Shown piece by piece: positions 6,848-64,000 of a stretch of 64,000 bases of DNA. The DNA lies in assembly GCA_030568195.1 (NCBI GenBank), contig JAJLTO010000004.1, positions 992,001 to 1,056,000 of the forward strand, written 5' to 3'. Both the position numbers and the translations under genes were made by a program. The notes beneath the pieces are model-generated. The model made no database searches. It was not told the DNA's origin and worked only from the letters and a program-made list of their open reading frames with translations. The stretch comes from Dipodascopsis uninucleata var. uninucleata (lineage: Eukaryota; Ascomycota; Lipomycetes; Lipomycetales; Lipomycetaceae). Within the stretch, counting starts at the first letter, position 1; the number at the start of each line of letters is the position of its first letter.

Positions 6848-8137
6848 ATGAAGTACTTCAAACGAAACGATATCAAAGGTGAGTAAATTTCGATGGAGGG
6901 AAAGATATGATATGCAGCAGTGTAACTACCGGTATATCTGCATATTCATAATAATGCTAATATCTGGGAGCAAGATCCGCATGTCGCAGTTGTGGATGCA
7001 ATCACGCAGTTCTGTGACAAGAAGTACGATCCAAAGGGCAAACGAAGTTTTAGCCTAGGGATGAAACTAGGATCGAAGCCGGAAAAATCGAAAGAAAGCA
7101 ATGGTGATGAGGTGATATACTTGCCTACGATTGTAGATTGTGCTCAAGCTACGCCTGCGGCAGCACGCGAGGCAATCAGAGCTGTTAGAAAGCGAATAGA
7201 CCCAAAGCATGGATCCGGAAGTGTTACTCAGTACAACGCAATCATGGTTTTGCGAATTTTGATAGATACTGATTCTATCGCAGTTCAAGAGGCAATTGGA
7301 TCTGATGATAAATTAGCACCCATTCTCAAGACTGTTCTGAAAAACTCTAGAGATCCTTCCATTGTTGATTTTTTGCGCGATACGCTTGTTCGATGTGCTT
7401 CTACGAAAGGTGATGTCGAAGGCTTTTCCGCTTTACACAGTATATACTATAAATACTTAGCTAAGGGCAGATCTAAGAACTCAAGGAAGCAGCAGCTTAG
7501 CGAAATAAAAGTTAGAAGTCTGCAGGAGAGGATAGATGACATGGTACAAGAATGTAGAGAATCAGCTAATCTTCTAGAGCAGATTGTATCTACGACTCCT
7601 CCGGCATCGATTGCGGGAAGCACACTGGTTTTTGAGTTTTATCAACGATGCGATACGCTAGAGAAAGAAGTTACGAGATATCTAAACGATGATTCATCGC
7701 ACATTGATGAGCAACGGATGGTGAAGCTCATTGAATCCAATGATGCTCTCAAAGCTGCTCTGAATGCTCATAAATTGGCACTGGATAGAGCATCTGCGTT
7801 GACTAGTCCACCTCGTGAGTACTATGAGAGTGAATCTAAATTAATGACAGATGCACGGCATTCGCTGGAATACTATGGAGAAGGCTCAGGATCTTCTAGT
7901 CCCTCGATTACAAAAGAAGACTTATCCGTGATTCCATATATAGAAAATAACCACGAAACTGATGAAATCAGCTCATCTGATACCGGAGTGCCGTCGAGTT
8001 CGATTTTCATTTCGCGCGACATTGCTAATCCTTTTGAAGATGATGATCAAGAGTCATTATGGGACTCTCCAGTCGCACGCACACCAGTGAATGCGACCCT
8101 CCCGACTACACGAAGGCAGACAAGTGCTATAGTATAA
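6848..8137 (+). CDS. LSB5: LSB5-like VHS/GAT endocytic adaptor
   Basis: Exons 6848-6878 and 6990-8137 give 392 residues. Exon 1 encodes only the first ten residues, and donor GTGAGT restores the frame at VVDAITQFC. Residues about 10-145 form a helical VHS-like domain with PAAAREAIRAVRKRID and TQYNAIMVLRILIDTD, the place where Lsb5 proteins carry the conserved AARAL-RKK segment. Residues about 170-285 look like a GAT domain (three-helix, ubiquitin/Arf binding: IDDMVQECRESANLLEQI, ESNDALKAALNAHKLALDR). The tail is acidic and Ser-rich and ends with an NPFEDDDQE segment; NPF can bind EH domains. Yeast Lsb5 binds Las17, Sla1 and ubiquitin at cortical actin patches. Family call is good; strict orthology to LSB5 is inferred. 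Confidence 0.8.
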
Positions 8138-8546: not shown

Positions 8547-10158
8547 TTATACTCCAATAAGCTCATGAATGAACTTAGTAGTATCATTGGCTCTCATTAA
8601 AGCTTCTCCTACTAAAAATCCTCTCACGCCTTCTGTAAGATACTTTTCAACGTCTGCCCGACTGGAAATGCCACTGAGTGCGCAAAGTATAGTTTCTTCT
8701 GGAACCATGGACACCAATGACGAAGTAGTTCCCAGATCTACATTAAACGAATGCAAGTCCCTATTATTAACTCCGATGACCTTTGAGCCTAACTGAATAG
8801 CTCTTGTCATTTCAGAAGCTGAGTTCACCTCAACCAATGGCTCCATTCCAATAGACTTCGAGTAAGAATATAGTCTCTTCAGAAGTTCGTCATCTAGCAT
8901 TTTCACAATAAGAAGAACAGTATCAGCACCATTTAAGCGCGCTTCCAAAATTTGATATTCATCAAAAATGAACTCCTTTCTAAGTACAGCTGGTCTGTTT
9001 GGCATGCTATCTATCACCAGGCGAGCACTTCTCATATCGTCTATTGTACCTTTAAACCAATGAGGTTCCGTCAGCACAGAAATGGCCGCAGCACCTGCCC
9101 TAGCATATAAACGTGCTTGAGCCGCGGCATTGGCAGTGATGTCAATTTCACCTTTAGAGGGAGAGGCACGTTTGATTTCAGCCAACAGAGCAGTAGTAGC
9201 CTGTAATAGACGAACCGAGAAATCAATCTGCTTAGGAGCAACATTCAAGTTATAAGTTGTCAACAAGTTGGATGGTGTGTAGGCAGCGATAATTTTCTGG
9301 GCTCTCACATCTTCCATTCGCCTCGCATAAATACGATCTAGAATGCTTGCTTTGTCTGATGATGTCGTTGCAGAGACACCAGACACTTGAGGCGTAATGG
9401 CAGCAGTGTCCCACGTGCCTCCTTTGATATTGAGAAAGTTTCGGATCATGAGATGGCCGTTCTCAGTAAGGATACTTTCGGGATGAAACTGAACACCCTC
9501 AATCGTGTATTCTTTGTGACGAACGCCCATAATAATACCATTCTCAGTTTTTGAACTAACTTCCAGGCACTCAGGAAGTGACTCGTGAGTGCCTGCGAGA
9601 GAATGATATCGCGTAACTGCAACTTGCTGAGGTATATCCTTAAAGATACCTTTACCATCGTGCGTAATCTGGGAAGTTTTTCCATGCATGATCTCACCAG
9701 CAGATATAACATTACCTCCAAAAACAGAAAAAATACATTGCCTATGCAAAATTCAGAGCTTTAATAGCTGGCTCTCATAAAACTAAAATGTTACACACTT
9801 GTGCTAATGAAAAGTAACTTACTCGCCCATACACACACCGAAGATAGGTATTTTACCTGAAAACTCACGAATACAGTCCAGAGAAATACCTGCGTCGGTC
9901 AATGGATGCCCAGGACCCGGGGAAATAACTAATTTACTTGGACTAAACTTGATAAGCTCGTCAATTGTGATCTGGTCATTTCTAAATACTTCAACATCTG
10001 CGCCTTCATTACATAGAAGTTCATAGACATTCCTTTAAACGCAAGTTAGTAATATGAAATTATAGTCAAAATTAAGTAGCTACAGTTACAGTCACATACC
10101 AAGTGAATGAGTCGTAATTATCGATTAAGACGACTTTTCCTGAACTTTTAAGTGCCAT
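8547..10158 (-). CDS. TRP3: Bifunctional anthranilate synthase component II / indole-3-glycerol-phosphate synthase
   Basis: Exons 10158-10100, 10032-9823 and 9741-8547 give 487 residues, close to S. cerevisiae Trp3 (484). Residues 1-195 are a class I glutamine amidotransferase: [40 protein letters not shown] with the nucleophile Cys, and a C-terminal VQFHPES. Residues about 220-487 are the IGPS TIM barrel: [59 protein letters not shown]. The protein supplies ammonia to the TRP2 subunit and makes indole-3-glycerol phosphate in tryptophan synthesis in the cytosol. No PRAI domain follows, as in budding yeast. Most amidotransferases have Gln or His where GEQ has Glu. A Gcn4-type site lies upstream. 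Confidence 0.96.
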
Positions 10159-25680: not shown

Positions 25681-28085
25681 ATGTCGTCTATGAGGGGTAA
25701 GTATAACTGGCATTGCAGTTCACTGTGATGATAGCTTTAGCAGAGACGTTTTGGAATGAACTGCTACAGAGTAAAATCGGTGAAAATATAATTAAAATTG
25801 AATTGACAAGTAATTGAAAACAAGCTTCTAATATTAAATTATAGGACTGGTTCAGTTTATAGCTGATATCAGAAATGCTCGAGCGCGTGAGTTGGAGGAG
25901 AGACGAATCAATAAGGAGCTCGCAAATATACGGTAAGTTTGCAATAACGAAGGCTCGCCAAGGAGGCGGTGCCAATTCGCAATAATGTTTATAAGCAAAG
26001 ATTGCTAGTAGAAAGTCTTGTACAGAATCTGATGTGATATTAATTTAGACAAAAGTTTAAAGGTATGAATAATGGTCGAATGAGCTGGTTTTCTTTCGTG
26101 TAGGATCCGTACTGAACATAAGACGTTTAATATATTATAATAGATTCAAATCTGAATGGATATCAGAAAAAGAAATATGTTTGCAAAGTAAGTAGATTTG
26201 CATAGTCTCAGAATATGTTAGATCACATGTCTATCTGATGTGTCTGACCCTTTTGATAGATATTGTATATTTATATCCTCGGATGGAATATCGATTTTGG
26301 GCATCTAGAAGCCCTAAATTTAATTGCTTCAACCAAATATTCAGAAAAACAAATAGGATATCTAGCGATTAGTTTATTGTTGAATGAAAATCATGATATG
26401 ATTAATTTGGTGGTGAATAGTATTCGCAAGGACCTCAACGATCATAACGAGCTTTTTAACTGCTTGGCGTTACATGCGATCGCTAATGTTGGAGGAAGAG
26501 AAATGGCAGAGTCTCTAAACAAAGATGTGCACGGATTACTTATTTCGGCGTAAGGAATTTCCAAGCGTTTATGTATCACTTATATCTTTGCAATTAATTA
26601 AGAATACTAACGAATAATCCTTGTTTAATGTTATATTTTAGTGTCTCGAAACCGTTTGTTAAGAAGAAGGCTGCTCTTACCTTACTGAGATTGTACAGAA
26701 AATATCCAAATGTTATACACATTGAATGGGCTGAGAGAATAGTACAGCTACTCAACGATAAAGACATTGGAGTTGTAACGTCTGTTTCTTCATTGATTCT
26801 TGCACTTGCCCAAGACGATCCAGATCGTTATAAGTCTTGCTACGGCAGAGCTGTCGAAAGACTAAAAGCTATGAACATTGGCAACTTGATACCTTCTGAC
26901 TATATGTACTATAGAGTCCCGAATCCGTGGCTTCAGGTTAAGTTAATGAAGATTCTTCAGCATTATCCGCCACCAGACAATGTAGACATTAGCCAGAGTC
27001 TGATAGTTGTTCTCGAATACATCTTGGATAATTATGAGATGTCTAAGAACGTACAGCAGAATAATGCACAAAATGCAGTATTGTTTGAGGCTATCAATCT
27101 TGCAATTCATATTGGTATTCCTGAGATTGGGATGACTATTGTGGAAAAGCTTGGCGTTTTTATTTCGTCTAGGGAAACCAATTTACGTTATCTTGGATTG
27201 GACGCTATGGCACATCTTGCTGCTAGATTGGAAGATGTTAGTATTCTACAACAGCATCAGAATACTATACTCAATTCTTTGAAGGATAGAGATATATCCG
27301 TCCGAAGAAAGGGTTTGGATTTGATTTACAGTATGTGCTCGACTGCAAATGCAGATGTCATAGTAGTGGAGCTTCTAAAGTATCTGGAGACCGCAGATTT
27401 TGCTATCAGAGAAGATATGGTAATAAAAGTTGCGATCCTAACCGAAAAGTATGCTTCTGATTTTAAATGGTATATTGATACTATATTAAAACTTGTTTCG
27501 ATCGCGGGAGACTATGTTAGTGACGAGGTTTGGCAGCGTGCTGTCCAAATTGTTGTTAACAACGAGGATCTTCAGCCTTATGCTGCACATACATTGTTGC
27601 AGTATCTAAAAGGTCCAACATACTATGAAGCTATGGTAAAAATTGGAGGCTACGTATTAGGGGAGTTTGGACATCTGATTGCTGATACTAAGGGTTGTTC
27701 TCCCATTGAACAATTCATGGCGTTACAGAGTAAATTTATGTCATGCTCTGCGTTTACAAAAGCCCTATTATTGTCCACATATATCAAATTTGTCAATTTG
27801 TTTCCTGAAATTAAACCACAACTTATGCGTGTATTCCTTCTATATAGTCGTTCTCTGGACGCAGAACTTCAACAAAGAGCTTGCGAATATATGGCGATAG
27901 CTAATCTGCCTTCAGATGATTTGTTACGTACGATATGTGATGAGATGCCTCCTTTCCCGGAGAGGAAATCTATTTTACTTACAAGAGTGATGGAGAAACA
28001 AAATTTATCTGAAGATAGACGAACTTGGTTTATTGGAGGTAAAACTGCTAAACAGGACAATGATGCATTGATAGAAGGATTTTAG
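25681..28085 (+). CDS. APL3: AP-2 complex alpha-adaptin lacking hinge and ear
   Basis: Six exons: 25681-25696, 25845-25932, 26049-26062, 26144-26187, 26260-26549 and 26642-28085, giving 631 residues. Joined small exons read MSSMRGLVQFIADIRN, RINKELANIRQKFK and LNGYQKKKYVCKILYIYI, the alpha-adaptin start that contacts PIP2. The helical-repeat trunk follows (GWNIDFGHLEALNLIAS, SKPFVKKKAALTLLRLYRK, YRVPNPWLQVKLMKILQ, DRDISVRRKGLDLIYSMC) and ends at ICDEMPPFPERKS, the normal trunk end. Alpha subunits usually continue through a hinge and an appendage to 880-1025 residues; here a TAG follows 36 residues later, and only 116 bp separate it from the next convergent gene. AP-2 recruits cargo at the plasma membrane; without an ear, accessory-protein binding should be lost. 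Confidence 0.93.
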
Positions 28086-28201
28086 GACCTGTAATAGATA
28101 GGGTAAAATATTTGTAAGTGGACTCGTACTACTACAAAAATTTCTATAAATATATATAATATGAATAGATTATGGCTCATTTCAACAATACTTGACTGCA
28201 A

Positions 28202-29087
28202 TTAATTAATCGGTTTCCTAAGAGGACGAGATCCAAAAATCGTACTTCCGACTCGAATATTAGTGGACCCTTGCTTGATAGCATCTTCAAAATCTTCGCT
28301 CATACCCATACTCAGCTCTAGATCTGAAATCGAGAGGGCAGACTCTATTAACTTCTTTGTTTCGACCAAAAGCTTGAAATCTTCATTTTCAATATGTGCT
28401 GAAGCCTTAGATCTAGCAATCGCACCGATTGTCATCAAGCCTTTGAATACTAAATTGGTGCAATTCTGGATAATGTGACGTGCAATAACCTCCACCTCTA
28501 TTGGTGGAACACCACTCTTATTTTCCTCACCACTAGTGTTTACCTGAATAAAAACATTGAGCTTCGACATCTCTCCATTTCTAGAGTCGTTCAACTTATT
28601 GGCTCGCTTAATAGAATCTACAGTCTCAACAGCGTAGAGATTTGGTATTTCAGCAAGAGCAGCACATTTATTTGATTGTAGTGTTCCAATAAAATGCCAT
28701 TCAATGTCCTTCGGAAGAATAGCCGCTTTTTCTATTAATTCCTGTGCATAATTTTCGCCGAAGTGTCGATGTCCATGATTATAAAGTGCTAAAATATCTT
28801 CTGCAGGTTTCAGCTTTGATACAGCTACTAAACGAATCTTGGGGACCATTATTAGGCTTACAATTAACAGGCTATAAACTATGTTACTGAAATTTTCTAC
28901 TTACATTTGAGCGACCATCCGCAACGTTTCTTAATCTATCTTTAACAGACTCAAAGTTCTCGATCAATTCGTGGGAACGATCTGGAGATACTGTTAAAGA
29001 TGTCATAGTACGAACTTCACTTGCGATGTCTGAAATTTGTAAAATTCCTATTCTTGCAATTCTAGGACGAGATAAAAGACGATACAT
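28202..29087 (-). CDS. YBL036C: Pyridoxal-phosphate homeostasis protein (YBL036C/YggS/PROSC)
   Basis: Exons 29087-28905 and 28837-28202 give 272 residues; both joins are in phase 0 and yield RSNIRLVAVSKLKPAED. The Lys in AVSK is the PLP-binding residue. Other signatures are HFGENYAQELIEKA, IEWHFIGTLQSNKCAAL, FIQVNTSGEENKSG, LSMGMSEDFEDAIKQGSTNIRVGSTIFG. This fold type III barrel buffers free PLP and has no known enzymatic turnover. The upstream 27 residues (MYRLLSRPRIARIGI) are Arg-rich with no acidic residue and could target mitochondria; a second Met at 29006 would give a 245-residue cytosolic form, so dual targeting is possible. Convergent with APL3 at 116 bp. Confidence 0.95.
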
Positions 29088-49739: not shown

Positions 49740-51791
49740 ATTGGGAGGACTAGTAGCATGCGCAGATTAGTCTTGCCTAGTAAGCGGAGGACAAGCTAAG
49801 GGTGGAAGAATATATACGGTGACTTGTATGTTTCTTAGACGCGCGAGACCAGGGTTGCTTATTAAGATATATAGAGGCCAAGCAATGACACGAGATCAGA
49901 AGTAATATCTAATTCAGGTTGTGTGGAGCAACATCAACTTACAGCCGAGATGATTCGTAGGCGAATGTCTCGTTAAATAGGCGGAGCTGCAGGACATGAT
50001 CTAAGATTGTGGTGTGCCTGAGCGACCATCCCGGCATACGTAAAAATGACTTGGTTTACCTCTCGGATCCTGCCCGTTTTGTAGAAAACATGAACGAACA
50101 TCGAAGAGAGACTACGAATCAGGTAGCGATAGACAGGCGCCAGCGTCCATAGTGACTCCCCGAACGCGCTGTCAACTGCTCGTCTCTGGTCTACACAAGT
50201 ACCCGGACGCCTCTCGCCATTTACGCTCACTGACGCAAGGCTGCATCATCGTGCATGTATATTGAACTCTGTTGCATTACCAAACCCTGAAGCTGCCGGA
50301 CGGGCGCGCCACGCTTGCGCCAGCAGCGGGAGAGGCGAGCTAGTCGAAGGAGTGGTGAGACGCGAGGGACGATCGCATGCAGCGAGTTGTGCTGTGCTAG
50401 GAGCCCCTTTCGGTGTGCTGGGCGCTGCAGAGCGGAAGCCGCCCAGATGAGAAAGCCTGGAGGCAGTGCGCGCGTCTGTGCCTCTCCGCCTCCGTCGCAC
50501 GCAGGCAGCCTGCGCTGTAACAGGAACTGAAGTCGTCTCGCAGTCTGAAACCGCCTGCAGTGACAGGGCTAGGGTCATATAAAGCTCTGGGGGGCAGACG
50601 AGGGTCTCTAGCAGCGGAGACGCCAAGGCGAGCCGTAGAAGAGCGGCCAAAGAGGCAGCACTAATCGCTGCGAGATGCGGGAGCGCTGGGTTTGACGAGA
50701 ACGCGAGCAGCTGTAGGAGCCCGTGGCTAGCTTGAATTTGGCACTGCTTATGCGAAGGGAAAGTAAGTCTGGTGCTGCAGGCGAGCCAAGGTGGTGTGAA
50801 TTTGGCTGCACACACTCGTACTATTCTACCGTAGTCTGGCATCACAATTTAGGTTCTCCTCTGGCCGCTACGATCGAACGTACACTTCATATTTTAAACT
50901 ACATCTGGACAAAATCACTCTAGCGATACATGCATTGAAACATAGGTGTGTGCAGGTACGCATAGAATAAATATAGACAGATAGATATGTGGACAATTGT
51001 CGATAGGAGCGTGAATATAAATAGATTTAGTCGTGCATATTAATAGGTATAAATTTCCCTACAACTAATACTGTTAAGAGTGCTTAGTGGCGAGCGTAAA
51101 ATGTACGCCTTTTACAAAATTGCGTTAGTTTGAGCACACATACTCTTCACACACCTCCTCCCTGCCCCCATTACTTCACTGGCTCAAAACGAAAAAAAAT
51201 TTCCTGCTGTCTACGCGGTACTGTTATCTTAGTAGACTTGTATTCTCTCTGAATCCGCGAACGTCAAGACCAACGTCGTCCATAAAGTGGTTTGCTTGAA
51301 CTAAAAAAGTTAAAGGTAAGCTATCGTTCCGCTTAGACTAGATCACGCTCCAACGTGCAGCCTTCCAACAATGCAGCACCAAATAGTGAGCACCACGCTC
51401 GCACATCTCGCTCAACATTGCCAGCTCTACCGCTACTCACTGGACAGCATACCCTCTCTCTTGAGATATCCGCGTCAGAGCTTGCCAATTGCATAAAATA
51501 AAATAGAATTCTCCTCTGTACACGTGTGCTGCTCTGGAAAAGGATATTGACGATCTTCAATAATCTCTCATACTGCAAATTTAGATTTTGTTTGCTAGCT
51601 CGTCAACCGATTGAGCTGCGCCAAAATATCTCACAACGTGCATCTTGCTCTTACTAATTTTCTTACAGGTTTCAGCTCACGACCGGTCTCTATTTTGGCG
51701 GCTTGTGTTCGAACGCGCTGTTTATATCGTATCGGCTATCGTTGTCCTAGCCTTCATTTCGATCGTCTCTATATAGCCCTGGCTCTCCAAC
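49740..51791. other. Divergent 2.05-kb intergenic region with GC-rich island
   Basis: It separates the sugar transporter from the first glycosyltransferase-like gene. The middle is strongly GC-rich (next entry); the flanks return to AT-rich sequence with the GT gene's probable leader at about 51550-51791. A TACTAAT-type branch and CAG at about 51652-51668 suggest a 5' UTR intron there. Confidence 0.55.
49960..50800. other. GC-rich island in AT-rich DNA
   Basis: By hand count 50281-50520 is about 67 percent G+C (161 of 240), against under 40 percent in most of the window, and CpG is frequent. Several frames on both strands are open, the longest being 199 codons on the minus strand (50246-50845); that is expected when stops are rare and the products look like random Ala/Ser/Arg-rich sequence. 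The edges grade over one to two hundred bases. It could be a structured non-coding RNA, a CpG-rich promoter or DNA of foreign origin; I cannot decide. Confidence 0.7.
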
Positions 51792-53720
51792 ATGGCGTTC
51801 CGACTGTCATGTATGAACCTCCTGAAAGCAGCGCTGGTGCTAGTGGTCTTGATCGTCCTTTTCACTCCTCCCGATGTCCACAGTGCTCTCAAAAGCAGAA
51901 TTGGCATGGACAACTCTGCCGACTATGCGCCTGACTCGCCGATCGACATTAACAGCCTGTTTAACGACGGAAGGAAGCTCGATCTCCCACCCCAACAGTC
52001 TTCCACTTACAAATCTACACAACCAGCTGTCGAGGCTCCTCCTAATCCTGCTGACTCTGGTATTGTTCCTGAAAGCAAACCCGCAGGCTCAGTATCTGAC
52101 TCCACCAAGCAGGAAGATATTAAGCCAGAGCTCAAGCAGCCTGTTGGGGCCTCCAAACAGCCGGCTGCAGATCTCACTGAACCTGCTGCGGATCCTATCC
52201 AACCCGAGCCAGTGAAGCAACAGTCAGGACCAATACAAACAGCAGTAGAGTCTGTTGGGCCTGCCTCAGGTCCCGCTAAGCCTGCGGCGGATCCTGCTAA
52301 GCCTACGGCAGAGTCTGCTAAGCCTGCGACAGATCCTGTTAAACCCGCTGAGCAGGTTTCAGACTTTGTTCAGCCTTCTAAACAGAATGAGGTTTCTTCA
52401 ACTGAGGTGAATGGAAATGCGTTTGCTGGAATTCCAGAACCTCCACAACAGGGTGCAGTAAAAGAAGAAACTGCCCCTGCTGTTGTGAATGTTGCTTCTC
52501 CGGAGCCTATTGTAAATGCAAAAGTTCAGGAGCAGTCTACAGGTACTGTTACTCCTATGGTTAACGACGTTCCTCAACAGCGTGGACATAAGAAAATTTT
52601 CCTAGTCAACTCACCAAGATATCACTTCGAAATTGTATTGCCTTTTCTGAACGTATTTTCGAATCTAAAGGATGTCGATGTAACACTCTTCGCTAAACCT
52701 GTCGGTTACAGCCGATTTGGAGTCAGACCATGGCTAGATTTATATGCAAATCCATTGGGCTTGAACTTGATGCATATTGACAACATTACAAATTTTCTGG
52801 GCGAAGAGCAAGCAGCTCCTGATTTAATTTTCTTGACGTCATGTCCTGAAGATGTTCTTGAGATATACCAAAGTTTGGATGTTTTCTTAGCTCGTGGTTC
52901 TAAGGTTATGTGTTTAGTTCATGAAGCTCAGAAATGGAATTTGAACGAGCCAGATAACAACAAGAGTCCCTACAAACCACAAATTAGTTATATGACGAAT
53001 TGGATTAAGAAGGGTCAGTGGGAACTTGCTACACTGTCAAATCATGTGCAAAATTATGTGTCAAAGAACTTTGCTACATACTTCCGAACCGGTAGCGAGG
53101 TAACTTACAATCCTCCAATTCTTTACCCAGTTTTCCGTCTTCCCGACAGTAAGATCAATTTGGATCAAGTTAACCCTTTTGTCGCGATTGTTGGAAAGCT
53201 CGAGCCGTGGAGACGTGACTACAATAGTATTTTCAGACAATATGCCATGTTTGATCCTGCAGTTGATCTCCATTTAGTAGGATACGGTGTGGAGCTGGAA
53301 GCACCGGAGTCCATTAAGCATAGACTGTCCTATCTTCTAGGAGCTGACTTTCCTCAATATTTTGAAGAGATATCGAAGGCTGTTGCTGTTATTCCTTCTT
53401 TTGCCTCAAAAGATTATTTGCGATCACAGGCATCGAGTTCAATTGCTACTGCTGTTATTGTTACTACTCCTCCACTCCTGACACGCGAAATGCTAGGGGC
53501 CTATTCATACATTCCTGAGGAGGCCGCATGGATCCAGGAGGATGGAGAGACCGAGGTAGAAGCCTTCTCTCGTGTTTCTAAACTTGGTGCAGATGCTTGG
53601 ACGGCGAAGAAGAAAATTTTAGCCAAAGCACGCGATGACCTTATGATGAAGAATTTGAAACAATTCGAAATAGAACTTGTGGAACTAGAAAAGGCCAAGA
53701 AGATTGCTTCAAAGAGATAA
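51792..53720 (+). CDS. Putative type II membrane glycosyltransferase (GT1-like), copy 1
   Basis: Intronless, 642 residues. A short cytosolic tail is followed by a signal anchor (LLKAALVLVVLIVLF, residues about 10-26), then a Pro-, Ala- and Lys-rich stalk (to about residue 260) containing a 7-residue repeat. The globular part has KKIFLVNSPRYHFEIVLPFL, DLIFLTSCPEDVLEIY, SKVMCLVHEAQKWNL, FVAIVGKLEPWRRDYNSIF, LHLVGYG and SIATAVIVTTPPLLT, in the order expected of a GT-B fold with two Rossmann-like halves. Topology suggests a Golgi enzyme. The family resembles fungal glycosyltransferase-like proteins of no known function; donor and acceptor are unknown. A diverged copy lies 1.5 kb downstream on the same strand. 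A classical E-x7-E is not obvious. Confidence 0.8.
   Translation: MAFRLSCMNLLKAALVLVVLIVLFTPPDVHSALKSRIGMDNSADYAPDSPIDINSLFNDGRKLDLPPQQSSTYKSTQPAVEAPPNPADSGIVPESKPAGSVSDSTKQEDIKPELKQPVGASKQPAADLTEPAADPIQPEPVKQQSGPIQTAVESVGPASGPAKPAADPAKPTAESAKPATDPVKPAEQVSDFVQPSKQNEVSSTEVNGNAFAGIPEPPQQGAVKEETAPAVVNVASPEPIVNAKVQEQSTGTVTPMVNDVPQQRGHKKIFLVNSPRYHFEIVLPFLNVFSNLKDVDVTLFAKPVGYSRFGVRPWLDLYANPLGLNLMHIDNITNFLGEEQAAPDLIFLTSCPEDVLEIYQSLDVFLARGSKVMCLVHEAQKWNLNEPDNNKSPYKPQISYMTNWIKKGQWELATLSNHVQNYVSKNFATYFRTGSEVTYNPPILYPVFRLPDSKINLDQVNPFVAIVGKLEPWRRDYNSIFRQYAMFDPAVDLHLVGYGVELEAPESIKHRLSYLLGADFPQYFEEISKAVAVIPSFASKDYLRSQASSSIATAVIVTTPPLLTREMLGAYSYIPEEAAWIQEDGETEVEAFSRVSKLGADAWTAKKKILAKARDDLMMKNLKQFEIELVELEKAKKIASKR
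52275..52337 (+). repeat. 21-bp tandem repeat in the stalk of copy 1
   Basis: Three units of GCTAAGCCTGCGGCGGATCCT with a few substitutions, in frame, encode Ala-Lys-Pro-Ala/Thr-Ala/Thr-Asp/Glu-Pro/Ser. A degenerate fourth unit follows. Such repeats commonly vary in number in surface and Golgi stalks. Confidence 0.85.
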
Positions 53721-55189
53721 ATGATACATAGATTTTATTCGTTCTGTATATAGATATGGTTGGCCTTGAAATTAACTCTAGCTATTGTGGATCTTCTCTA
53801 TAGAAGAAATTCGGATTTGCATGCTACTTTACTCTTTCATACCGAAATTAATTCTTTGGGCATTGTTGTGATTCTTGTCAAACTCAATAAGTTTTCCTTT
53901 TATGTATGTTGTACTTGTTTCTTTAATATTGTATCTATATTTCTATTGTTATCTGCCATGTCTAGTTTTCGTTTTAAACGGCGTTACACTCGCAAATTTG
54001 ACTACGCATGTTTAGGATTACCTATATAATGGACTTAATAATTAATAATTGATACGCGGATGGATTACTTTATGTGATTAATGTAGAATGCTCCCACGTG
54101 GAAGTAGCAAAAAGAGTAGATTCCATGAACTGCGCGAATTTCTGGCTTATAAATTTTCGTCCAGAAATCCTTTTAGCTACCAGCATAAGTTGGAATAATC
54201 ATGTACTTGATTCTATATTTCGATATGAAACTAGTATGTTGCTGATCTTCTAAAAAGTGAAAAACTGGTTTGGTGCTGTTTCAAACTTCTCTTAAATAGT
54301 GCCTTAGTCCATAAATAGTAAGGTGTAAATTGCTAAACAGCTGTCAAAATGCAGGGTTCGCAATATGAGATCTTATGGAAGGTGGACAAGCACTTCACAG
54401 ATGATGTAATTCTACGGTCTATAAATATGATATCTGCAAATGATTAACGCATTATATCTCACTGTCATAAATAATTATTGGCAATCTTTTTATTATTAGT
54501 CCAAAGACGACATTACTAAGGATTCCAAAAAGTCGTTGGGAGGTTGTTACCCGAAATTGAAATTTTGACGTAGAAACAATATTTAATAAATATAATACAA
54601 GAATTTCGCACATGTAAGCAAATTCGGGTTATTGAAGTTGGTCCGTCCGTTAATTCTAGTTTTAACCAAGGAAATGAATCGGAGATTTCCTTAAGTAACC
54701 TGATCCAAAATACCACATGTAGCGTCTGACGTTAGCAAATTGAAAAGAAAACAATTAAAGTAGATCCGTCAGTTAAAATTTAACTCGACAATACAAATCT
54801 GTAGCTCGCAGTGGATTTCTCTTTTAAAGCCATGATATCCGAATAACTAATTTTTCATGACCATCACCACGAAATCTTTCAAAACTACCGATACATCAGA
54901 TATAAAATAGGTAAAAGACGAGACATTAAAGAAATCTAGGGTAAATATAAAGTAAGACGGCAACAATTAAGCTAAGTGCTTTAGTTTCTGAAGCTTGCTG
55001 CAGTCTTGGTTCGGTGCTTTACCTTTTCTCTCTAGATACCTATTAATTCTACATTTCATTTTGTTTATACTGCTATAATAGCACTATTTATCGGGTTTCA
55101 AAAGTAGAGAATTAGATATTAAATTTATATCAAAGTCTTATGAACAAGAGGATTTGGTGATCATCCTCTATCTCACGAGACAGGCAAAG
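53721..55189. other. Intergenic region between the tandem glycosyltransferase-like genes
   Basis: 1.47 kb of AT-rich DNA. The only candidate gene is a tiny spliced frame at 54349-54568 (separate entry). A 89-codon frame at 53760-54029 in the 3' UTR of copy 1 begins without a supported ATG and carries no recognisable content. Confidence 0.5.
54349..54568 (+). CDS. Candidate small spliced gene, very tentative
   Basis: An ATG opens 19 codons (MQGSQYEILWKVDKHFTDD) that run into a GTAATT donor at 54406; after 94 bases an acceptor TTATTATTAG leads, in phase, to 22 more codons and a stop, giving 41 residues, hydrophilic and Lys/Asp-rich. The first exon does not look like random AT-rich translation. 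No clear branch site and no known family; it may be chance. Confidence 0.2.
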
Positions 55190-56928
55190 ATGGCTACCAG
55201 AAGTGCCCGATATTACGCCTTCATTGGAGGGCTATCCTGCTTTTCCCTACTAATGATAACCTTGATAACAATACAAATTTCTAGTTTTCATGAAGTTGCG
55301 GCAAGATCACAGTCACCCGCTGACGATGTTGTTGTCAAAGCATTGAACTTAAAGGACTTCGTTGATAACATTAAGACGGAGATTTCAGGATATAAACAGT
55401 TTTATTTCCAGCAATTGCCAATTGAGCATGAGCCTGTTAATCCAGAAGGATCTGAGGAGCTAGCATATGAGCTAGAAAAAGGTTACTATGCCAATGACGA
55501 AGATGATGATGCTGTCTATGACATTGACGATGAAGGCCCAACCGAATATGAAAAGTATAAATTCTCCGAGGACGCTAACTTCTCAGAAACACGCGCCATC
55601 AACGTTGATATAGTTTGCACCAGTGCTGCTGATTTCGACATTGTACTCTCATTAGCAGGTTCTTTGCTGCTCCCTCCATCGTCCATGCAAGAACGGTTTA
55701 TCGACCTAGATCTCTTTGAGGGTGAAATCCCTATCCAGGATGGTATCAATCGTAGAGTCAACTTGACAATAGTTAATGCGTCTCCTGAAACTTCAAAAGA
55801 AAACGATTTTAGTTATGGCAACTACGATAGGATGATCGATCTTGTCCTAAGAGAGGTAAAGATGCTCTGTATAGCAATTTGTTTAATTAAGAAATTCAAC
55901 TAACCTTGATATCACTCCAGATCAAACATTTACCTATTAATATTATACGCTCCGAGTCATATTCGCGATCAGTATCATCGCCGAAGCTTATATTCCTTGC
56001 ATCTTGTCTTGATGACTCGATTTCTCTAGGGGAGTCTATTCGACACGCTCTTGCGAACGGAGCTAAAGTAAAATGTATCGTTCGAGATCCTGCTGCTTGG
56101 GATATCACTGAATTTGGCACAATTGCTCAATCGGCCGGCCAGGACGTTAGAAAAGCCATTGAGTTGGCCCGACCACACATCGAAGATGGTAACTGGAATT
56201 TCATATCAACAACAAAAAATTCAATTGATTATATTCGAGTTTTGTTTCCCGTGATATTTGGCGTTTCATCATCCATCGACATCGTTGAATATCATCATTT
56301 CATACCTTTGATCCCACGGACTACTCTTCAAAAATCAGCGATCAAGAAAAAATTTACCGGCAGTACATCTGCACTTATCGGAGCAGATTTCGTCCGCCCT
56401 CTGTCTTACAAACAGAAGCTCTACAAAAAAGCAATTGAGATGTACGGAGACGATAGACGACCTAGTATGACTCTTCATATTCTTGATTTCCTAGGTGGTG
56501 CAGGAAAGTACGAACAGTACGAATTACCTGCAACAGTTCCTTTTGGATCAATTATTATCGAGCACAACCTCCCATTCCACACGTTCGTTAAGCATGCATC
56601 AGAGGCAGATATTCTTATTCCCTCTGTTACCATACCACAATCTTATTTCGACCGTCGTATGATTATTCGTCAGATTGATCTTTCTGTCATGTTTTCTCTT
56701 TCTCTTGGACGTCCGTTGCTCATGAAGCGCAGCCTTTATGAGTCTTATTTTGTTTCGCGAATTCCAATTGAGATAGTCATCTTTAGCGACGACCACGACG
56801 GTTTCTACCACGCCCGCACCGGAGAAACTGAAGTTGCGCTCAGAAATGCGGCGGAATGGTCTGAAATTGCCTATGAACAGAATTGGCTTTTTATTTCTAC
56901 TCTACTCGACAAAATCTCTCGGTCATAA
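55190..56928 (+). CDS. Putative type II membrane glycosyltransferase, diverged copy 2
   Basis: Exons 55190-55855 and 55921-56928 give 557 residues; the intron has a CTAAC branch. The N-terminus has a signal anchor (YYAFIGGLSCFSLLMITLI). The stalk is acidic with no repeat. The globular part parallels copy 1: VDIVCTSAADFDIVLSLAG, PKLIFLASCLDDSISLGESI, AKVKCIVRDPAAWDI, HIEDGNWNFISTTKNSIDYI, TSALIGADFVRP, MTLHILDFLGGAG, LMKRSLYESYF. Identity is low, perhaps a fifth to a quarter by eye, so the duplication is old or the copies evolve fast. Catalysis is not assured. Location is probably the Golgi lumen. No recognised ortholog. Confidence 0.75.
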
Positions 56929-60087: not shown

Positions 60088-60165
60088 TAGGCTGCTTTCC
60101 ATCCTCTTTTAAAACTCTTCCTTCTCTTCCTTTTTCTTTCTCTTTTTTATTTACACATCCATTCT
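60088..60165 (+). promoter_or_regulatory. Pyrimidine-rich leader or promoter of the codon-biased reductase
   Basis: A strongly C/T-rich plus strand (ccttctcttcctttttcttt and similar) ends about 75 bp before the start codon at 60242. CT-rich tracts just upstream of transcription starts are typical of highly expressed yeast genes, in line with the codon bias of the gene. Confidence 0.5.
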
Positions 60166-60241
60166 TTTCATTTATTTGAATCGGCAGCTTTGCTCCAGAT
60201 ATTCTTTAGTTCTAAAGAAAAACTCGACAGCAAACGCAACT

Positions 60242-61699
60242 ATGGCCACTCCTCTCACAGGTCGTCCATTTTCACGACTTTTCGTGCCAACTTACAATGC
60301 TATCATTGGCTTCTTTTTCCTCGTCGCCACCGCTTCTTACTTCTACAAGCTTCACTTTTTGAAGCCCAAGTCGTCTGAGAAGCGACCTCTTCTTGGTGGT
60401 CAGGCTGTTAAGCCTGCTACCGGTTTCCTCTTGGGTTACAGAAAGGTCCGCTCCGTCTTGTTATACCAGCCACCTGGAAGATACCTCGAGCCTGTTGGAA
60501 CTATGTTTGTTGTCCTTGGATACATTGCTTTGAACGTTTTCTACACCTTCTACAATCACCCATGGGAAACTTCTGCTGTTCTCGAGAACAGATTCGGTCT
60601 TGTTTGCGTTGCTAACTTGCCTATTATGTTCTTGCTCGGTTCTAAGACTGGTCTTCTTGTTCAGTGGACTGGTTGGTCTCATGAGGGCTACAACATTCTT
60701 CACCGTCACGCTGGCCGTGTTGTCTGCTTGACTGCTCTTGGACACGTTATCACTAACGCTTACCGTAGACCATTGAGAGAGCAGTTGATGAGTGGCCCAA
60801 GAATTGGTGTTGGTGGTGGTCTTTCCATCCTTGCTTTCATTATTATCTTGGTTACTTCTTTCGCTCCAGCACGAAACAAAATGTACGAGGTTTTCTTGTA
60901 CGCTCATGTTTGGTTCTTGGTTGGTGGTATTATTGTTCTTTTCTTCCACTACCCACGTGTTAGACCATATTGCACTGCTGCATCCGTTATCTTCCTCTGG
61001 GATCGTATCAACCGATTCAAGAATGCTCATCACGTTGTCGCTACTGCTACTCTCTTGTCTGGCAACACTGTCAAGCTTTCTCTTAATGTCAATTCTACTT
61101 TCCGTGAGATCCACTGGAAGACCGGCCAGTACGTTTATGTTACTATTAACAAGCTTGCTGCTTTCCAGGCTCATCCTTTCACCATTGCTTCTCCACCAAA
61201 CCCAAATACTTTGGATCTTATCATTCGTGCCAGAAAGGGTTTCTCCAAGACTCTCTTCATGTCCGAGTCTCTCGAGCACGAAGTTACCTTCCATGGACCA
61301 TACGGTTCTCCACCACAGTATGATGGATGCTCCCGTGTTATTCTCCTTGCTGGAGGTGCTGGTATCTCTTATACCTATCCTGAGGCTGTTGAGCTTGCCA
61401 AGAAGCATTCTGGTATGGATATTGATTTCTTGTGGGTTGTGCCACAGCGTGATTTCTCTTCCTGGGTTGATCTTGATGAGAAGTACAATGTTGACTTCAA
61501 GCTCTGGGTTACTTCCGAGCAGGGACGTCCTAACATTGATCAGTACATCAAGGATTCCGTCAAAGCTGCTCAGGGTCAGAAGGTCGCTGTTGGTACTTGT
61601 GGTCCAGCTCCTCTTGTTCTTGCCGCTCGTAACGCTTGCTCTTCTCTCCTCTGGAATGGTGTCGATGTTGAGTTCTACTCTGAGAACTTCGGTTGGTAA
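60242..61699 (+). CDS. NOX/ferric reductase-like protein (AIM14/FRE family), highly codon-biased
   Basis: Intronless, 485 residues. The start is MATPLTGRPFSRLF; upstream in-frame codons lack an ATG. Seven or so helices hold two H-x13-H haem pairs, in NILHRHAGRVVCLTALGHVI and LYAHVWFLVGGIIVLFFHYP. The cytosolic half has the FAD motif HPFTIASP, the nucleotide motif GGAGIS and a CGPAPLV end. There is no long extracellular N-domain, so it is closer to AIM14/YNO1 than to metal-uptake FREs. In S. cerevisiae Yno1 is an ER NADPH oxidase that makes superoxide. Codons are heavily skewed to GTT, GCT, CTT/TTG, AAC, AAG and GGT, far more than in any neighbour, which predicts very high expression. Substrate is open: oxygen, iron or another acceptor. 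Confidence 0.9.
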   Translation: MATPLTGRPFSRLFVPTYNAIIGFFFLVATASYFYKLHFLKPKSSEKRPLLGGQAVKPATGFLLGYRKVRSVLLYQPPGRYLEPVGTMFVVLGYIALNVFYTFYNHPWETSAVLENRFGLVCVANLPIMFLLGSKTGLLVQWTGWSHEGYNILHRHAGRVVCLTALGHVITNAYRRPLREQLMSGPRIGVGGGLSILAFIIILVTSFAPARNKMYEVFLYAHVWFLVGGIIVLFFHYPRVRPYCTAASVIFLWDRINRFKNAHHVVATATLLSGNTVKLSLNVNSTFREIHWKTGQYVYVTINKLAAFQAHPFTIASPPNPNTLDLIIRARKGFSKTLFMSESLEHEVTFHGPYGSPPQYDGCSRVILLAGGAGISYTYPEAVELAKKHSGMDIDFLWVVPQRDFSSWVDLDEKYNVDFKLWVTSEQGRPNIDQYIKDSVKAAQGQKVAVGTCGPAPLVLAARNACSSLLWNGVDVEFYSENFGW

Positions 61700-64000
61700 G
61701 CGGTGTACTCAGTCATTTGTTTCGTTTTTATGAGATTCCTTTTATGAGGTACGAATTTATGAAAGGTCTGTTTTTATAAATTACGAATCCCTAAATTGTG
61801 ATATGAGTACAATCTTGTTTCTACTAGTCGTCTTCTTACATCTTCACTGAATTTCATCCTGGATAGAGGATTTGTTATGATAGAACATAAAATTTTGTCG
61901 GAAGTATTTTATTCAATTTATTCTTAGAGGCTATTCAATTTTTTTGGGATTCTTTACGCGTTCCGGAGGGGGTTTATTTTGATTTGAAACCTGTTTTCTT
62001 TTAATATTCGACATTTTTCATATCAGGATAGCATCGAAGGGGTTTTATATTTTATGTCTAAATAGAAGAAAAAATAAACGAAGTAATTCTTTTATTTTTT
62101 GAAAAATGGAGAAAAAAATTAAAACTAGAGATAATTACTTGTCATTAGACGGTTTGATTGATAGAATGTCTAGTTGAGTCAAATAGTTATTATGGCTGTA
62201 ATATTTCTACGCTAAGTTCGATCTATTCTCAAGGTTTCTATTCACCCTTATAATTTAATATGATGTTGGTAATATATTTTGAAACTTCTTTTTTTTTCTA
62301 TTGGAAAAAAGTGAAATGGTATTGAATAAGGTGAAATGTGTGAATAGTATGATTACTTTAGCAATGATGACATCGAAGCAATATCAGATCAAAGTGCCCA
62401 ACGAATATTTACTTGTAGATTAGTGTTCGCGAATTCTTTCTTAGTAGGTAGAATAAAAATTTATTTGTAAGTCTTTTGCGTGAATGGTAATATTTTAATA
62501 GGTAATATTGTAGTTTGATGGTTTTAGAGGTGACTAGAAGGTTCACACGAGTAAATTTTGAGGACTCAAGAGATCTTGGTTACAGGAAGTGTACTTGAAG
62601 GACTGTCTGATGGGTAGATAGAAGATTTAATGTTATCATAAGATGCTTGTGAATGTGTGTGTCCATTGATGATATCCGGTTTGTGTTATTTTTGCTCGAT
62701 CAGTAATGATCAATAGATTATCGCGATAATGTCATATACTGTATGAGAGAGACATGCTCAGCGTAAACTAGCTGTGTGTAAAAATAACTTTCAGGAACGA
62801 TGCCTTTTCTCAGAGTTACCACATACAGCTAAATTTTGTGGGTTATTTTGTTCTTGCATATTATTTGTTTATATTAGCAAAAATGGCGTTTTCTATACGA
62901 ACACGAACCTAAAAGAACTTAGAAGTCATTTTCCTCATCTCTTCGAAGCTAAAACTTACCCTGATTTTTTGAATCACAAAACTGATAAGATCTGATCACA
63001 GAAATGGATTGGGGTTAATATTACGATGTCGGATCAATCCGAGAAATTCATCTCTACTATCTAGTGTACGAGCCATTTAACAAGGCATGATAGACAACTA
63101 CAATTACCCAAATCTCACCATAATATATAGATATAACTATATGATGTGTTTAAATGAATCTGGTTGAAGCAGTTTTCAAGTTTTACATTTTCTATTGACT
63201 AGATGCTAAAGAGAACTAACTATGGGATTAGCTATTTAGTTACTATGATTTTGTTCGATAACTTGAAAAGTACGAGATTGAGCAGTAGCTTCCACTTACT
63301 CTCCATTGATTACGGCATACACCGGCTTACATAGACTTTTGTGTAGATGTCCATAATGTACGCATGTATTGAATAGAAGTGACTTTGCCTCGCTTAGCGA
63401 AATAACCTGCAATAAATGTAAAACTAAATAGATATTGAGATCGCAGGTGACTCCATACATAGTTAGTTTACATGGACTATTTGCTGAAATAGTTTTCTGT
63501 TGTACTGGTTGAGCATAATATCTGTAAGCGACAAGTAGATTTGACATGCGATTCCTGTCTATACGAGGGTTAACTGAGAAACATATGTAGGGCTCAAAAA
63601 TTGCCATTTAGTTACCCGGACCATAATTTAAGAGAGGGGAATGTAAAATTTTCAGAAGGCTTTTTCTTCTTTTTTACTTAATGTCAATAAACCATAGACA
63701 CCTAGAGTCACGGATTGGTGTCTGAGTTAAACCTCCAAAGCGCCTTTCATGCCGTCTATGATGGATCTGCGTGCTCACGGTTGTCTAAGAGTAAATGGAA
63801 ATACCGGGGTTGAAAGACCAACGGGTTTCTGTTCTATTTGTCCATTAGTATGTACTGCAGCTTGATCTTTACGATATGCGGAACTTGGTTTTGGGACGTA
63901 CATTCAAATTAACAGCATATTTAATAAGTATAAGTTTGTAAATATAATAGATTTTATATTACATGAAATGAATTAGTTCTATGTACATAAAGGTAATCTC
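61700..64000. other. Right-edge region with no supported gene
   Basis: It starts with the T-rich 3' UTR of the reductase gene. Frames at 62774-62995 (plus) and 63296-63607 (minus, 103 codons) carry no recognisable domain and lack clear splice partners. The right edge may hold the regulatory region of the next gene. Confidence 0.5.

Follow-up and report, generated by a model that had tools for sequence, protein, structure and literature searches.

The window, a stretch of 64,000 nucleotides from the ascomycete Dipodascopsis uninucleata var. uninucleata (contig JAJLTO010000004.1), contains a predicted AP-2 alpha-adaptin gene that is followed, across an AT-rich gap, by a convergent ORF (Table 1). 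In the splice model, the exons of the alpha gene lie at 25681-25696, 25845-25932, 26049-26062, 26144-26187, 26260-26549 and 26642-28085, separated by predicted introns of 72-148 bases. All exon borders are GT...AG, and when joined the exons create a single open frame of 631 residues. The predicted protein consists of the trunk and a short tail and is without an ear domain, which bears out the initial annotation of an alpha-adaptin that stops at the trunk.

Table 1. Features at the alpha-adaptin locus (window positions)
Feature	Position	Strand	Evidence
AP-2 alpha-adaptin gene (APL3-type), 6 predicted exons, 631 aa, without ear	25681..28085	+	splice model, translation, PDB and Pfam matches
Last exon of alpha gene, about three quarters of coding sequence, ends with short tail	26642..28085	+	ORF list, splice model
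Codons for the 37 residues past MPPFPERKS, plus stop codon; contains RTWFIGGK	27972..28085	+	
Convergent intergenic gap, 116 bp, 27.6% GC	28086..28201	.	
Adjoining ORF, 232 aa, PLPBP/YggS-type by reading (no family search); bounds the alpha gene	28202..28900	-	

The same annotation had described a tail of about 30 residues; a short tail followed by a stop is indeed present, whereas the count after MPPFPERKS is 37. Within this tail lies RTWFIGGK, which we take to be a piece conserved at the hinge start of fungal alpha-adaptins, and if it is so conserved, then the alpha protein would stop just past it. Also upheld was the claim that the stop of the opposite-strand neighbour, 116 bp away, leaves too little space for a hinge and appendage, the minus-strand ORF ending at 28202. 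The sequence GTAAGT is found at 28114, shortly 3' of the alpha stop codon. No Rfam match was found in the window.

Several other ORFs in the window are of interest in their own right. A 200-aa ORF at 50246-50848 (minus strand) coincides with a patch of 60% GC in a window of 39% GC, and may be an oddity of composition rather than a gene. The ORF at 60113-61699 (plus strand) reads as ferric-reductase-like, and most of its length is overlapped by an open frame of 415 aa running the other way (60461-61708, minus). The adjoining, related-looking ORFs at 51777-53720 and 55082-56928 (both plus strand), with similar segments such as PDLIFLTSC and PKLIFLASC, are perhaps a tandem pair. At 8547-9752 (minus strand) is a tryptophan gene frame, GATase-IGPS by reading, that ends after IGPS without PRAI within that frame; in many filamentous fungi, PRAI is fused to GATase-IGPS.

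The alpha protein matched 40 distinct PDB sequences at E ≤ 0.001, the top eight of which are all AP-2 alpha chains (E about 1e-198, 662-664 bits) that cover the query from residue 3 or 4 to residue 604 or 605. The trunk scored 664 bits against AP-2 alpha, in comparison with 262 against AP-1 gamma, 206 against AP-4 epsilon, and 148 against AP-3 delta, placing the gene as an AP-2 alpha orthologue of a predicted truncated form. In the alignment with chain 4uqi_A, presumably the mouse alpha chain, 316 of 602 aligned residues are identical (52.5%), and the final full block of 100 columns, with 54 of 98 residues identical, is close to this average; thus, there is no decay toward the end of the trunk. 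The alignment to PDB AP-2 alpha chains also has MRGL and KKKYVCK unchanged, two segments that we take to hold the PtdIns(4,5)P2 ligands of mammalian alpha. The N-terminal basic stretch is kept, and with it a putative PtdIns(4,5)P2-binding basic surface near the N-terminus of alpha is retained.

Pfam detected Adaptin_N in the alpha protein, with a Cnd1 match below the cut-off, and neither of the ear domains (the PF02883 sandwich and the PF02296 platform); as a yardstick for detection, the mammalian ear scores 158.7 bits with PF02296 and 89.2 bits with PF02883. A search of the alpha protein for clathrin-box patterns found none, and no relatives of the protein were found in prokaryote genome contigs or viral contigs. 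The CTG codons of the gene fall on leucine at six of eight aligned positions, and on these grounds a CTG-reassigned yeast was disfavoured.

A detached alpha ear, for which the initial annotation had proposed a genome-wide search, was not found in the assembly (16.2 Mb, 25 contigs) either by the PF02296 profile (run at E ≤ 0.001 only) or by a search with the mammalian ear protein (E ≤ 10). The PF02883 profile, which covers the alpha, gamma and GGA ears, has one match in the whole assembly at E ≤ 10 (83.8 bits), and this single match sits in an 891-residue frame read as AP-1 gamma, indicating that an adaptin ear is detectable in this genome. The control genomes were prokaryotes, so that the PF02296, PF09066 and mammalian-ear searches were run without a known-positive genome; sub-threshold PF02883 matches occurred in 3 of the 14 controls. 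Closer to the gene, the mammalian ear reached only noise level, both in tblastn on the window and collected loci (best E 0.24, in L004, a different gene) and in phmmer on the 1420 window ORFs of at least 25 aa (best E 0.43).

The remaining AP-2 subunits can be accounted for. The gene for mu2 (L026) scores 350 bits with AP-2 mu versus 272 with AP-1 mu, and that for sigma2 (L033) scores 156 bits with AP-2 sigma versus 115 with AP-1 sigma. Two beta genes, L003 and L025, are allotted to AP-2 and AP-1, respectively, by reading only. The Pfam scan covered the AP-2-read gene of the two, in which it identified Adaptin_N and no appendage domain, and the beta appendage profile PF09066 has no match in the whole assembly at E ≤ 10. 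Past the Adaptin_N match, the AP-2-read beta continues for 225 residues as a long, low-complexity tail. The sole clathrin-box pattern match in this tail, LMYFD, was judged to be a chance occurrence; the same pattern search found LLDID in the tail of the AP-1-read beta. Thus, as predicted from the genome, all four AP-2 subunits are encoded, with neither large subunit possessing a recognisable appendage. The suggestion that an ear-less alpha would be a change parallel to the truncation of beta is supported by the missing beta appendage.

The wider inventory of adaptin-related domains gives a context for these missing appendages, with names for AP-1 gamma, the AP-1 and AP-2 betas, AP-3, sigma1, sigma3, delta-COP, mu1, mu3, Hse1 and Lsb5 assigned by reading only. 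There are 21 Adaptin_N matches in the assembly, several of which are exon pieces of one gene; the two read as alpha (L006 and L012) both belong to the window gene. By reading, the other strong matches belong to one gamma and two beta genes, to the beta and delta subunits of AP-3, and to the beta and gamma subunits of COPI; three weak places could be tied to no AP or COPI subunit (L017, armadillo-like by reading, at 40 bits; L020 at 25; and one on contig C6 at 18). Three of the eight Clat_adaptor_s matches are exon pieces of sigma2 on contig C17 (L033, L037 and L038); L032 and L034 were read as sigma1, L031 as sigma3, and L035 as part of delta-COP, with L036 left out of these readings. By Pfam, both appendage domains are retained in gamma-COP and an ear is still present in the gamma gene, and it follows that appendages have not been lost in general.

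The reading that we favour is that functional AP-2 alpha in this organism probably consists of the trunk and a short tail, making the complex a natural 'AP2 core'. A close parallel is the AP2 core engineered from mammalian subunits (the trunks of alpha and beta2, with mu2 and sigma2; PDB 2vgl), as described in the available text of PMC9054013, in which alpha ends at approximately the same place. In the PDB alignments, residue 604 of the query aligns to residue 620 of 4uqi_A, 2vgl_A and other chains. The mammalian core was cut by hand, whereas the form described here would be a natural gene product, known from sequence, and its AP-2-read beta differs from that core in having the long, low-complexity tail. 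With regard to full-length alpha-adaptin with its appendage (PDB 6owt_A, 939 aa), the trunk is homologous (662 bits), but the D. uninucleata protein is without the ear and has at most a short tail as hinge. The alpha ear is widely present elsewhere, and from this wide presence we infer an ancestor that possessed an ear, which was later lost.

Among fungi, loss of the beta appendage is attributed to all higher fungi in the available text of Martzoukou et al. 2017 (PMC5338921), and the beta of Aspergillus nidulans AP-2 is described there as being without both appendage domains, as is the case here. The change described in Aspergillus is in beta, however, whereas here the alpha ear is missing too. 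The known beta loss lends some weight to the possibility that an ear-less alpha is simply ordinary for this fungal lineage and familiar to specialists. In those parts of the literature that were surveyed, however, the beta loss is named and the alpha loss is not, and no report of an ear-less alpha was recognised, making this alternative rather unlikely.

Less likely still is that an ear comes from a distant exon missing from the annotation, from trans-splicing, or from a separate protein that has diverged too far for detection. The GTAAGT could serve such an arrangement, and six-frame searches can overlook an ear that has diverged strongly or is divided into small pieces; moreover, Plasmodium KIC5 is described as an alpha-type ear without detectable Adaptin_N in the available portion of PMC10718435. 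However, the GTAAGT is located past the stop codon, the introns predicted in the alpha gene are all short, and the opposite-strand ORF begins to intrude just 116 bp away, in a genome that has no PF02296 match and one PF02883 match. Overall, a hidden ear is improbable. An assembly error, in which ear-coding DNA went missing or was joined wrongly around 28085, is more improbable again: a single assembly is available, which leaves room for such an error, but the frame continues well beyond MPPFPERKS before its stop, the gap is followed by an open convergent ORF, contig C4 is 1.5 Mb, no orphan ear is found elsewhere in the assembly, and a VHS-GAT protein, L043, seems to miss its ear too. It is barely credible that the working alpha lies elsewhere and that the window gene is either a second copy or one in decay: nothing was found in favour of this, the window gene is the only one of the Adaptin_N matches to read as alpha, its frame is open, and its conservation is even. 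Such a reading would require another alpha gene in DNA that is missing from the assembly.

If AP-2 is indeed a natural core, alpha-sigma2 and beta-mu2 would still assemble, and the core would still bind PtdIns(4,5)P2 and YxxPhi or dileucine cargo. The engineered mammalian core, for instance, binds PtdIns(4,5)P2 membranes and the FCHO linker, according to the text available from PMC9054013. Helpers and coat proteins would be gathered by contacts other than those of the alpha ear, and candidates for such substitute contacts are AP180 NPF motifs with EH proteins, and a Syp1/FCHo linker with the core. For budding yeast, the available portion of PMC11451990 describes Yap180s that reach Ede1 through EH-NPF contacts, with no direct AP-2-Ede1 contact documented. 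In the D. uninucleata genome, the AP180 piece (434 aa) has four NPF motifs and no DP[FW], FxDxF or WxxF/W. A muHD protein of the Syp1/FCHo type is also present, and its 777 examined residues have one DPF and neither FxDxF nor FGPxL; in PMC9054013, FGPxL belongs to the stretch of FCHO1 that binds the alpha appendage. Such counts would fit a core-only AP-2 whose partners meet elsewhere, although the single DPF speaks against it, and they weigh lightly, since the fungal partners may never have relied heavily on the alpha ear.

A second ear may be missing from the same genome. GGA was sought through its GAT domain, as a gauge of search sensitivity, and four matches were found. One of these, L043 (790-1917, minus strand; G000, contig C2, about 894500-896000), is a VHS-GAT protein, with a VHS exon nearby, that ends at a clathrin-box pattern (LLDLEDLL); the pattern search returned LIDFD and LLDLE. 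Against the PDB, the GAT part (query 13-143) scored 40 bits with GGA1, and GGA1 or GGA3 account for seven of ten matches, the other three being weak and unrelated. The VHS piece, however, scored 34.5 bits with TOM1 versus 24.1 with GGA3, which counts against a GGA reading. No gamma ear was found in L043 by Pfam, and none is readable in the 1370 bases downstream. Judged from these domains, L043 is perhaps a GGA-type protein that has lost its ear. According to the text available from PMC3473312, fungal GGAs share the domain composition of their mammalian counterparts, a rule from which L043 would depart if it is a GGA. The same source describes GGA-branch VHS-GAT proteins that lack a GAE ear in plants, Euglenozoa and Amoebozoa, and these resemble the ear-less L043. 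Another GAT-domain gene, L045, lies in the window itself at 6926-8137 (plus strand), about 17 kb from alpha, and is by reading some kind of VHS-GAT-like adaptor, distinct from the Lsb5-like L046.

Taken together with the core-only AP-2, L043 permits a broader and more tentative reading, in which the post-Golgi clathrin adaptors drop ear recruitment: AP-2 would be core-only, the GGA ear would be lost, AP-1 gamma would bear the sole PF02883-type ear, the appendages of COPI would be kept, and endocytic helpers would be recruited through NPF-EH and FCHo-core contacts. This joint loss is possible but somewhat doubtful, the odds being lowered by the VHS piece of L043, which is 10 bits nearer to TOM1 than to GGA3.

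The alpha ear binds many endocytic helpers and is treated as a hub in the available portions of PMC3591783 and PMC10718435, and in yeasts the role of AP-2 is apparently moderate, as stated in the text at hand of PMC5338921. With a natural core-only AP-2, what the complex does for cargo and membrane could be told apart from its role as a hub without the need for engineering. Joint loss of the alpha and GGA-type ears would, in addition, make co-loss of ear motifs from partner proteins testable across relatives and, if the joint reading is true, the alpha ear hub would be dispensable in nature.
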